A DNA stretch of 64,000 bases from Henriciella marina DSM 19595. GTDB lineage: Bacteria > Pseudomonadota > Alphaproteobacteria > Caulobacterales > Hyphomonadaceae. The notes under the pieces are model-generated. The model saw only the letters and a program-made list of their open reading frames with translations. It did no database searches and was not told the origin of the DNA. Shown piece by piece: positions 38,121 to 43,946 of the stretch; the stretch's first letter is position 1, and each line of letters begins with the position of its first letter. The translations under genes were made by a program, and so were the position numbers. The DNA is taken from positions 2,666,001 to 2,730,000 of the forward strand of contig NZ_AQXT01000002.1 in the NCBI RefSeq assembly GCF_000376805.1, in the 5' to 3' direction.

Positions 38121-40639
<2,519 letters not shown>

Positions 40640-40668
40640 TCACCGGTATTGATCTGGCATGAATATGG

Positions 40669-40685
40669 CATTTCAATCTGAAATG
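40669..40685. promoter_or_regulatory. Palindrome before the nucleotidyltransferase gene
   Basis: CATTTCA, ATC, TGAAATG is a perfect 7-bp inverted repeat 22 bp before the start of the two-gene cassette. It is positioned like an autoregulatory operator; no binder is identified. Confidence 0.5.
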
Positions 40686-40706
40686 TATGTGCTCGGGAGC
40701 TGATTC

Positions 40707-41261
40707 ATGCCGATTCCACACTTTAATCATGAGGGGGTGCTGCCTCCATATGTTGGACCGTCACCCGGCGGCGATCCCTCGTCGATGAGCCCCTACAAGG
40801 TCTCCGCAATGGAGGTTGTGCATCACTTCGCGTCGACGCCCAATAGAATAGAAATTTTAAAAGGTTGGATACGGCATCGACAAGAGCTCCGTGCGCTAGG
40901 TTTCGATAGGGGGTTCCAATGGCTTGATGGTTCCTTCTTAGAGGATAAGGAACCAGATGACTTGGATATTGCAGGATTTTTGTACGTCAAAGACAGGTAC
41001 GATGAAGCCGGCTTCCTGCGGTTGATGCGTGACAATCCGAACGTGCTCTCTAGAGCGGAAATTAGAGCGGCATTCCGATTAGATTTTCTGCCGGTAGACT
41101 TGGCGGGAACGCCGGAGAGTATAATTGATTTATCACGATACTTTCTTGGTTTGTTCTCTCATCGGAGGGGTGATATTATTTGGAAAGGAATGTTGCAGGT
41201 GTCATTGAGTGCGGCTGACAACGATGACGCTGCACTAAACTTTCTTAACCAGATTGGCTGA
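40707..41261 (+). CDS. Nucleotidyltransferase-fold protein (DUF6932-like)
   Basis: The 184-residue protein has a nucleotidyltransferase pattern: 'WLDGSFLEDKEPDDLDIAGF', with Gly75-Ser76 followed by Asp85/Asp87, and a likely third carboxylate in 'FRLDFLPVDLAG' (126-131). The N-terminal 'GVLPPYVGPSP' and 'RIEILKGWIRHRQELRALGF' match DUF6932-type proteins of unknown function. Base composition is AT-richer than thiC. It forms an operon with the next gene, 11 bp away. A role in conflict or defence is possible but unproven. Confidence 0.8.
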   Translation: MPIPHFNHEGVLPPYVGPSPGGDPSSMSPYKVSAMEVVHHFASTPNRIEILKGWIRHRQELRALGFDRGFQWLDGSFLEDKEPDDLDIAGFLYVKDRYDEAGFLRLMRDNPNVLSRAEIRAAFRLDFLPVDLAGTPESIIDLSRYFLGLFSHRRGDIIWKGMLQVSLSAADNDDAALNFLNQIG

Positions 41262-41272
41262 CTAGATTTTCC

Positions 41273-42223
41273 ATGGGTATGCTAGCAAAAATGGAACGTG
41301 ATCGTACGTTGGCAGACTTAGCCAACGTCGACGAAATGTTGGCTGCGCTTTCAGATAGCGATTTTGTTTCAAGAGCTACTCTTCAGCAGAGACGAGATGA
41401 GCTTCTGGATCAGGTGGCTCAGTATGATGACCGGGTCGAGGATGGGACGGCGTCGGCTGCGCTATTTTTCGGCGGTCGCCCGGTAATTGCTGACCGAGGG
41501 ATCGAAGCAGAATTCGCTGGCGAAATTTCTCGAAGCTTCCAAGACCTGATTGCAAAGTTCGCAGCACAATCTGTAGGGCAGTTAGGTAGGCGCGGGGTCG
41601 TGCCCCGAAAAGAAGAGTCCACTCTTCATATCACTAACGTTGTTCGTGGGTCTTTCGGATTTCTTTTCGAGCAAGCAGCGGAACAACGAGAGATGGTGCC
41701 GACGCTTCTTTCAGATACTGTTCGTGGTGCTGCAAAACTACTGTCCGCATATTCGTCCGAAGATGACGAAAACTTTGCAGCCCAATTAGAAGAGGTCGAC
41801 CAGCGTGTATTGGAAGCGGCAGCAGGTTTTTTCGACCTTATTCAAAAGAGCGGGGCAACGTTTAGATTGGTCGCTGGCAATAGCGACAACAGCTACGGAT
41901 CAGCTGCAATTGAGCGTGCAGTTGAGCGGGCTAAAGAATCGCGAGTTGAGCTAGAAATAAATACCGTAGAGGCCATATTTTTGGGCGGTCTGCCGGAATC
42001 TCACAGATTCGAATTGAAACTAGCCGAGAACGAAGAGTTGATGACGGGCCGTATCGACCCAGAGCTATCCTCAAATGATATCCAGCGCTTCAATAGAGAT
42101 TTCACCAACTCGCAAGTTTTCGCTCAGATTGAAACTAAAAAAATACTGCGCAATGGCGCTGTCGTACGCGAAAGCTACACTTTGAAAAGACTGAATGACG
42201 CCGCCGAAGCGGGCCAATTTTAG
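41273..42223 (+). CDS. Unknown protein paired with the nucleotidyltransferase
   Basis: The 316-residue soluble protein is predicted mostly helical in the first half ('RTLADLANVDEMLAALSDSD', 'RDELLDQVAQYDDRV') and mixed later. 'SESHRFELKLAENEEL'-type strands and a basic 'IETKKILRNGAVVRESYTLK' end it. There is no signal, no membrane helix and no named domain I can recognise. It shares the AT-richer composition of the upstream gene and its own codon use. ATG 41273 or 41279 may be the start. Its function is not guessed. Confidence 0.75.
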   Translation: MGMLAKMERDRTLADLANVDEMLAALSDSDFVSRATLQQRRDELLDQVAQYDDRVEDGTASAALFFGGRPVIADRGIEAEFAGEISRSFQDLIAKFAAQSVGQLGRRGVVPRKEESTLHITNVVRGSFGFLFEQAAEQREMVPTLLSDTVRGAAKLLSAYSSEDDENFAAQLEEVDQRVLEAAAGFFDLIQKSGATFRLVAGNSDNSYGSAAIERAVERAKESRVELEINTVEAIFLGGLPESHRFELKLAENEELMTGRIDPELSSNDIQRFNRDFTNSQVFAQIETKKILRNGAVVRESYTLKRLNDAAEAGQF

Positions 42224-42390
42224 GAAAGTTTGGATTGCAGCCTTTGTTGTCGGAGGACTGACGTCTTACCGATACTCGGCGCAGCTCACTAGAGCATTCA
42301 GACCTGATGAGTTTGCCGGGCCCTGCGATAGAGGTGCGACTAATGCTAAATCATTGCTCCATTGCCCACCCCCACCGCTAATCCGGCCCC

Positions 42391-42535
42391 ATGACCGACA
42401 GCGCCCCCGACAGACTCCAACCGCCTCGATGAGCTTGAAATCCGTATTGCCCCTCAGGATGAGACGATTGACGATTTGAACGCGGCCATCACGGCGCAGT
42501 GAAAGCTGATCGGGCGGCTGGAGCGCTATCCGTAA
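42391..42535 (+). pseudogene. Broken second copy of slyX
   Basis: The sequence from ATG 42391 follows the intact slyX at 43722 closely (CTCGATGAGCTTGAAATCCG and CGGCCATCACGGCGCA are shared). It has one extra base near codon 8 and a TGG to TGA change (42500-42502) where slyX reads W-K-L-I. Both lesions stop the frame. The copied upstream bases (CCGCTA..CCCATGACCGACAGCGC) show the leader was duplicated too. Confidence 0.88.
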
Positions 42536-42544
42536 GTACCTTCA

Positions 42545-42573
42545 GGCCAAATGGCAGGTTCTGCCATTTGGCC
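42545..42573. repeat. Perfect 13-bp inverted repeat
   Basis: GGCCAAATGGCAG, GTT, CTGCCATTTGGCC. It lies directly after the slyX pseudogene, next to a larger inverted repeat. Confidence 0.85.
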
Positions 42574-42588
42574 ATAGCCAGCCTGTTT

Positions 42589-42659
42589 CGATCCTCTTTT
42601 TCCAGTCAAGGGTGTAATCCTGCGGACGCGACGCGCCCTTGACTGGAAAAAGAGGATCG
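42589..42659. repeat. Perfect 24-bp inverted repeat with 23-base loop
   Basis: Arms 42589-42612 and 42636-42659 (containing CCTCTTTTTCCAGTCAAGGG and its complement) pair exactly. No gene is seen in it. It may be a mobile-element end pair, a recombination site or a structured RNA. The 42224-43211 stretch otherwise holds the slyX pseudogene, short palindromes and one REP copy, and no gene. Confidence 0.85.
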
Positions 42660-42689
42660 GACACGCGCCGCCTTGGCAGTTCGCGTTTT

Positions 42690-42819
42690 CCCCTCTCCCG
42701 ATTACGGGAGAGGGGGTAGGGGTGAGGGCACCGAAGTTTGTGTTTGGCGAGGCGTCACGGGTCATTGAAGTGTTCCAGCCCTCATCCCCGGCCCTTCTCC
42801 CGCAATCGGGAGAAGGGGG
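42690..42819. repeat. Two CTCCC/GGGAG palindromic repeats (second repeat family)
   Basis: CCTCTCCCG-ATTA-CGGGAGAGG (42692-42713) followed by GGTAGGGGTGAGG, and CCTTCTCCCG-CAAT-CGGGAGAAGG (42793-42816) preceded by CCTCATCCCCGG. Related copies lie at 55651-55683 and 55772-55810. They are dispersed non-coding palindromes. Confidence 0.75.
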
Positions 42820-42852
42820 CGCAAACTCGCCGCCCTCTCAATTCATCCGATC

Positions 42853-42937
42853 ATCCCGGACGTGATCCGGGATCCATCTCCCGCCCGCGCCACCAGGTGC
42901 AACGTCAGGAGATGGGCACCGTGGTCAAGCCACGGTG
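42853..42937. repeat. Two short palindromes (ATCCCGGA and CACCGTGG types)
   Basis: ATCCCGGA-CGTGA-TCCGGGAT (42853-42873) and CACCGTGG-TCAAG-CCACGGTG (42917-42937). Both have 8-bp stems with five-base loops, like the element at 32653. Confidence 0.65.
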
Positions 42938-43049
42938 AGGCGCCCCGTTTCAACCTTCACGCAGGATGTCCGAAGACCCCTCGTGAAAACTGGGCTCCAT
43001 GGGGCTTCGTCGGAACCGTCAGCGTGCAGTGATGGATGGCACGATGGAT

Positions 43050-43093
43050 CCCGGCCTCTCATCCTGAGCGAAGTCGAAGGACGAGAGGCCGGG
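43050..43093. repeat. REP family copy E
   Basis: The core ATCCTGAGCGAAGTCGAAGG is framed by CCCGGCCTCTC (43050-43060) and GAGAGGCCGGG (43083-43093), an exact 11-bp complement. This is the same design as copy D in the riboswitch. Confidence 0.85.
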
Positions 43094-43211
43094 TACCTTT
43101 CCGGGTTCACCCAGACGACAGCCCCATACCGCCACCAGGGCCCGCGTGCTTCACCCGCATCGCAATTGCGCCTAAGCTCCCCGTCGGCCAGTCACGCCGC
43201 GGGGGACACGC

Positions 43212-43652
43212 ATGACGAATTACGAACTCACCTATCTCTTCTATGAGGCCATCCAGGTCGGTAATGGCACGATGGCGAATTACATGACGCTGGTCTTCGG
43301 CATGCTGGTCACCAGCTATCTCGCCGCCCACCGGCTCGACCGCGTGATGATGTGGATCGCGCTCATCATCTATTCCATGTTCGCGCTCGGCTTCTGCAAT
43401 GAGATCTTCCAGTCCTATAGTGACTTTGCCCGCCTCGGCCTGCTGCTGGCCGAGCGCGGCCAGCTGCCGGACAGTGATCTCGGCTGGTTCGGCCCGGTCG
43501 CGGTGGGGGGAGAGCCGATGTATTTCATCCCCAAAATGGTGCTGACCATGACCCTTGCCGCCTATGTCGGCTCCCTAGCGTTCTTCTTCCGCGCGCGAAA
43601 GACGAACCTTTCGAGCAATACCGGGCCGGTGACGGCGACGGAGGCAGACTAG
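43212..43652 (+). CDS. Membrane protein, hypothetical
   Basis: The 146-residue protein has an N-terminal 'NYELTYLFYEAIQVGNGTMA' and three or four membrane segments (about 22-40, 45-62, 108-125). It resembles uncharacterised alphaproteobacterial membrane proteins; no named domain is recognised. ATG 43212 follows GGGGGACAC. It lies between the broken and intact slyX copies. Confidence 0.75.
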   Translation: MTNYELTYLFYEAIQVGNGTMANYMTLVFGMLVTSYLAAHRLDRVMMWIALIIYSMFALGFCNEIFQSYSDFARLGLLLAERGQLPDSDLGWFGPVAVGGEPMYFIPKMVLTMTLAAYVGSLAFFFRARKTNLSSNTGPVTATEAD

Positions 43653-43721
43653 CGAAGCGGCGCGGCCCGGCGACAGACAAACCCCTTTGTTTCCCGCAAA
43701 TGCCCGCTATATCCCGCCCCC

Positions 43722-43946
43722 ATGACCGACAGCGCACCAGACGACTCCACCCGCCTCGATGAGCTTGAAATCCGTATCGCCCATCAGGACCAGACGATTG
43801 AGGACCTGAACGCCGCCATCACGGCGCAATGGAAGCTGATCGAGCGGCTGGAGGCCCGTGTCACGCGACTCGGCGAACGGGTGGCCGACAGCGAACAGGC
43901 CGCCGGGCAAGCGGACCCCGTGAACAGGCCCCCGCCGCATTATTGA
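43722..43946 (+). CDS. slyX: SlyX family protein
   Basis: The 74-residue protein has the SlyX heptad pattern 'LDELEIRIAHQDQTIEDLNA' and 'QWKLIERLEARVTRLGERV', ending with a proline-rich 'VNRPPPHY' as in the family. It is a small coiled-coil protein of unknown role. A damaged duplicate lies at 42391. Confidence 0.93.
   Translation: MTDSAPDDSTRLDELEIRIAHQDQTIEDLNAAITAQWKLIERLEARVTRLGERVADSEQAAGQADPVNRPPPHY

Follow-up and report, generated by a model that had tools for sequence, protein, structure and literature searches.

The stretch analysed here, referred to below as the window, comprises 64,000 nucleotides of Henriciella marina DSM 19595 (contig NZ_AQXT01000002.1, positions 2,666,001 to 2,730,000). 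Directly behind a gene that we take to be thiC, as named in the initial annotation (38699..40639, plus strand), are two open reading frames (ORFs) on the same strand: P1 (40707..41261, plus strand, 184 aa) and its partner P2 (41273..42223, plus strand, 316 aa). The initial annotation described them as a candidate conflict or defence cassette of foreign composition, with genes 11 bp apart that are AT-richer than thiC. The 11 bp gap was reproduced from the ORF coordinates, and the foreign composition is backed both by the GC profile and by the GC content of the genes (0.49 for P1 and 0.50 for P2 versus 0.64 for thiC, the left border of the cargo spot described below).

P1 matches DUF6932 (PF22014) with 88.9 bits against a Pfam gathering cut-off of 27. 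It carries the motif GSX8DXD, a third carboxylate (D126) and a C-terminal FSHRRxDxxWKGM motif. Among the P1 homologues listed (the best 120 of 336), G75, S76, D85 and D126 are found in 120/120 and D87 in 119/120; GS, DxD and the third carboxylate are retained together in 119/120, and the GSX8DXD spacing in 118/120. The nucleotidyltransferase motif first read from the letters is accordingly part of a family in which the catalytic residues are kept rather than mutated, and P1 is predicted to be a polymerase-beta-type nucleotidyltransferase with a full site. AbiEii/MenT-type toxins are nucleotidyltransferase toxins; when P1 was compared with these, the sole Pfam family recovered was DUF6932 and the fold comparison was weak.

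The structural model of P2 predicts a helical hairpin (residues 2-54), an alpha/beta core that holds conserved FxGxPV and GSFGF, and an OB fold at about residues 225-309; the invariant residues look structural. P2 had been described as lacking a recognisable domain. This holds for Pfam, NCBIfam and PADLOC, where only sub-threshold rows were obtained, but not for phrog_18731, a family of unknown function that P2 matches at 3.3e-33. P2 is an orphan family.

P1 and P2 form a conserved pair, as had been proposed. Of 41 P2 loci (40 fetched and the window), 36 have P1 as the gene immediately upstream; this count includes 7 fetched loci obtained via DUF6932, in which the presence of P1 was guaranteed. 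The remaining five are a contig edge (L014), two loci in which an ORF beside P2 by eye looks like a transposase (L020 and L022), and two viral contigs (L026 and L027) that both have the same P2 fragment match. The reverse search gave 27 DUF6932 loci, two of them fragments, and in each of the other 25 a partner ORF follows immediately; DUF6932 was thus found as a partnered gene rather than as one commonly alone in housekeeping contexts. The 25 partners comprise 11 P2-like proteins, one short P2-like remnant (L068, by eye), three M63B-like proteins (L070 and L071 by PADLOC, L057 by eye), nine helix-turn-helix (HTH) proteins (seven by Pfam, four of which also matched the M78 peptidase; L062 and L069 by eye) and one bare hairpin (G367, by eye). 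The last of these (L044/L052), an 85-aa ORF that resembles a bare helical hairpin, follows a degenerate DUF6932, the only one with lost catalytic residues. DUF6932 partners seem to begin with helical stretches, a feature predicted for P2 only, and profile comparison of the hhalign type found no sequence homology between the HTH-type partners and P2.

The pair is widespread and its distribution sporadic: among 385 genomes of the class, four carry P2 (in one of them as a short match), and P2 was absent from all 28 other genomes of the genus. One of these, the sister genome G016, has another DUF6932 elsewhere, with an HTH-M78 peptidase partner (L063) and next to an ORF that by eye resembles an integrase.

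In the window, the pair sits in the interval that follows thiC, where several known or candidate defence genes are found in related species. thiC was located in 28 of 29 genomes of the genus, and nucleotide identity to the window stops at or before the thiC stop (40543-40642) in 27/27 relatives compared; from that stop to about 42390, no match was found in the 27 relatives within the 1.5 kb of flank compared. In G016 (L110), the segment 40640..42533 is unmatched and is replaced by an unrelated 1.85 kb. The downstream gene order is retained there, with DNA identities of 97% from 42534 and 95.5% from 43144, and 98% protein identity for the gene at 43212. thiC is closer in G013 (96% protein identity), but that genome lacks the downstream gene order. 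The replacement cassette of G016 (L110:7131-8906) encodes proteins of 389 and 193 aa without Pfam match, which are candidates for unknown defence genes. At the right end of the window's segment is a truncated second copy (42375..42523, plus strand) of a gene that is presumably slyX, the longer copy of which starts at about 43722. A perfect 24-nt inverted repeat with a 23-nt spacer is located at 42589-42659 and is also present in G016 (97% identity over 42534-42668).

A survey of GC content behind thiC covered 27 genomes (the window and 26 relatives). slyX was within the fetched stretch in 14/27, and in 14/14 of these the first 1.5 kb behind thiC was 0.08-0.18 lower in GC than thiC; the same drop was seen in 3/13 genomes without slyX in the fetched stretch. 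Most relatives examined carry a different AT-rich cassette behind thiC (40640-43722 in the window; L103-L128). Cassette proteins include dCTP deaminase (G011, 2e-153), Shedu SduA (G004, 1.4e-110), DUF488 PDC-M45B (G020, 8.5e-70), AIPR/AbiU (G025, 5.1e-67), FRG PDC-S15 (G022, 5e-53), DndB (G021, 6.5e-29 with Pfam and 8.9e-6 with PADLOC), an REase_AHJR-like protein (G017, 2.5e-22) and DUF2971 PDC-S31 (G019, 5.4e-10; only 5.8e-5 in G012). With PADLOC at 1e-5, cassette proteins were matched in at least 7 of the 17 relatives covered, and with Pfam at 0.01 no family was found for 9 of 20 cassette proteins scanned. In a control scan of 52 further genes of the window, 25 PADLOC families were matched at 1e-5 (families, not proteins, were counted), the best at 3.2e-47, and many of these bear HTH- and ATPase-type names. 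Because the control also yields PADLOC matches, the case for a hotspot rests on the specific strong matches and not on counts. Partial copies of slyX are present in the window (the copy given above), G011 and G021, and extra partial thiC 3' ends are present downstream of thiC in G011 (three or more) and G018 (one; L103, L104); these thiC ends are 50-82% identical in protein, as if from other species. Together, the partial slyX and thiC copies suggest exchange through the flanking genes. We found no paper on a cargo interval behind thiC in the open-licence literature.

Homologue neighbourhoods outside the genus also point to a conflict or defence setting for the pair. On a Bradyrhizobium plasmid the pair is found amid VPA1262-type, SOS-peptidase, ThiF, multiubiquitin and ImmA genes, and on a Paraburkholderia plasmid helicases and a DNA methyltransferase are nearby; the pair on a Methylobacterium plasmid lies near a transposase, with no evident defence genes. 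A search for conjugation operons covered 32 loci (L002-L030 and L053-L055), including the source of the queries (L028). DUF6527 and ThiF genes are convergent to the pair in 9/32 loci, overlapping the P2 stop by 4 bp at one extreme and lying about 20 bp from it at the other, and are followed by multiubiquitin, HTH and ImmA genes in seven of the nine; the other two contigs end first. These neighbours correspond to the type 6e polyubiquitin-like (polyUbl) operon (polyUbl, E1, DUF6527) described in PMC1779556. In a separate locus (L061), the pair is directly followed by an Abi_C (PF14355) protein.

The initial annotation placed the pair behind a perfect palindrome, CATTTCA-ATC-TGAAATG, and took it to be autoregulatory. 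This 7-3-7 element is exact (40669..40685) and is the sole match at up to 2 mismatches within the window (shuffles gave a mean of 0.15, with at least one match in 14/100). Such a feature carries little weight: when 70-bp pieces were drawn at random from the window, 5.9% of 3000 held a 7-bp inverted repeat (spacer up to 8), as did 71/679 pieces of similar GC. The palindrome was absent from the 150-bp stretches upstream of P1 in 15/15 homologous loci, and a different 6-bp palindrome was found in 2/15. With no conservation over these loci, the autoregulatory role was not sustained, and any role of the element is doubtful.

We read the pair as a conflict module of two genes that is swapped horizontally and most likely acts against phages, in which P1 would be an effector restrained by P2, and we hold this tentatively, at slightly below even chances. 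More broadly, the pair is probably an anti-phage or toxin-antitoxin device that has gone unrecognised, with a nucleotide-attaching enzyme at its core. The defence role is suggested by genomic context. The cassette proposed initially stands as regards pairing, enzyme identity, composition and setting, and falls as regards its regulatory palindrome. On the left flank in G016, the end of thiC is just 85% identical in DNA, which slightly lowers our confidence. Mechanistically, P2 would bind P1 via its N-terminal helical hairpin and keep it inactive, while the core and OB-fold domain of P2 would sense a nucleic acid or protein made by the phage. Once released, P1 would attach a nucleotide to a tRNA, a protein or some other target in the host, and this transfer might stop growth ahead of phage maturation. 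DUF6932 with an HTH or HTH-peptidase partner could similarly be a toxin with its regulator, and an effector nucleotidyltransferase held by an infection-sensing partner would fit all of the DUF6932 partner types.

The main alternative is a type VII-like toxin-antitoxin system in which P1 would be an antitoxin that nucleotidylates the toxin P2, as MntA does HepT. HepT/MntA resembles the pair in having a small polymerase-beta-type nucleotidyltransferase with a partner gene, the two-gene order and conserved pairing speak for such a system, and a Foldseek search with the P1 model ranked MNT antitoxins and HI0073 first, although these matches are weak (E 0.012 and up). The motifs differ, however. 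HepT/MntA is characterized by GSX10DXD in the nucleotidyltransferase and RX4HXY in the HEPN partner, according to PMC7641770, while the GSX8DXD of P1 is near-universal in its listed homologues and GSX10DXD occurs in 0/120 of them; RX4HXY is absent from P2 and from all 120 P2 homologues listed. The structural look of the invariant P2 residues and the resemblance of the HTH partners of DUF6932 to antitoxin-type regulators also argue against it, and we consider this alternative unlikely.

It is also conceivable that the pair plays no part against phages and is cargo, a cassette of a selfish or addictive kind in a variable interval. In favour of this, several cassette proteins behind thiC matched no family, and deletion of a relative, the PADLOC candidate PDC-M63AB, in E. 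coli NILS69 gave no evidence of defence in the one published test found (PMC12409345). Conservation of the site and the pair at 42-59% identity argues for selection on function, but addiction would select for this too; we judge such cargo to be quite unlikely. If the pair served as an accessory to polyubiquitin-like conjugation of type 6e, for example by modifying the Ubl or guarding the system, this would account for the convergent DUF6527 and ThiF genes in the nine loci, one of which is the source of the queries. A type 6e operon holds genes for polyUbl, E1 and a metal-binding protein. None of the ORFs in the window gave a match to the five type 6e queries, however, and these genes were not found in the window's own genome in searches made without a positive control. 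Furthermore, the association is clustered on a tree of 29 P2 proteins, where it needs three changes (with L010 scored as lacking the operon, though its contig ends 116 bp after P2). An accessory role thus seems very unlikely.

Beyond the reading of the pair as an anti-phage module, DUF6932 may be the fixed enzyme in a family of modular conflict systems, docking on a helical hairpin with an exchangeable payload (OB-fold sensor, HTH or HTH-peptidase), with one branch coupled to an operon for polyubiquitin-like conjugation, and the thiC-slyX interval may be a recombination-fed, integrase-free hotspot of single defence systems that replace each other. This wider scheme is possible, if on balance rather unlikely. 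Our results tie a nucleotidyltransferase family without a name, DUF6932, to defence through both its position and its neighbours. They also suggest that nucleotidyltransferases and the polyubiquitin-like systems of bacteria may be connected, which can be tested. The interval behind thiC also provides a short candidate list, as it holds cassettes of unknown genes where sister species have Shedu, dCTP deaminase and AbiU-type genes.

Three further known systems bear comparison with the pair. Systems of DUF6932 with an HTH or HTH-M78 peptidase partner share its enzyme family, gene order and directly downstream partner, but there the partner contains a DNA-binding domain, in some cases alongside a peptidase; the partner at L058 resembles PD-Lambda-2_B at 2.2e-7. 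Among viral structures, P2 is matched best by a phage DUF6575 protein (E 1.2e-11, TM 0.34), and DUF6575 is present in a validated E. coli defence system, as reported in PMC9519451; this is a resemblance of fold only, as P2 has no Pfam match to DUF6575 at E up to 1. In PDC-M63AB, too, the first gene is of the DUF6932 type and precedes a gene of about 310 codons, but P1 of the window has an N-terminal insert and the C-terminal FSHRR..WKGM motif. P1 matches PDC-M63A weakly (E 1.6e-6) and the PADLOC M63B models gave no match to P2 at E up to 1, whereas the pairs at L070 and L071 match both PDC-M63A (5.1e-37 and 1.2e-31) and M63B (8.9e-44 and 8.5e-61). A 73-sequence P2 alignment gave E 0.012 and a probability of 3.7% against M63B; for a broader P2 profile (50 sequences), hhalign gave 7.7e-7 locally over 137 columns and 1.6e-9 globally, with a score of 54.4 versus at most 22.9 over 30 column shuffles. 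We conclude that P2 and M63B are distant homologues, and because the models do not match and the profile homology is distant, we do not class the pair as a PDC-M63AB member. Rather, it is a diverged relative of that unproven PADLOC candidate, which is thereby extended to a branch that its M63B models miss.
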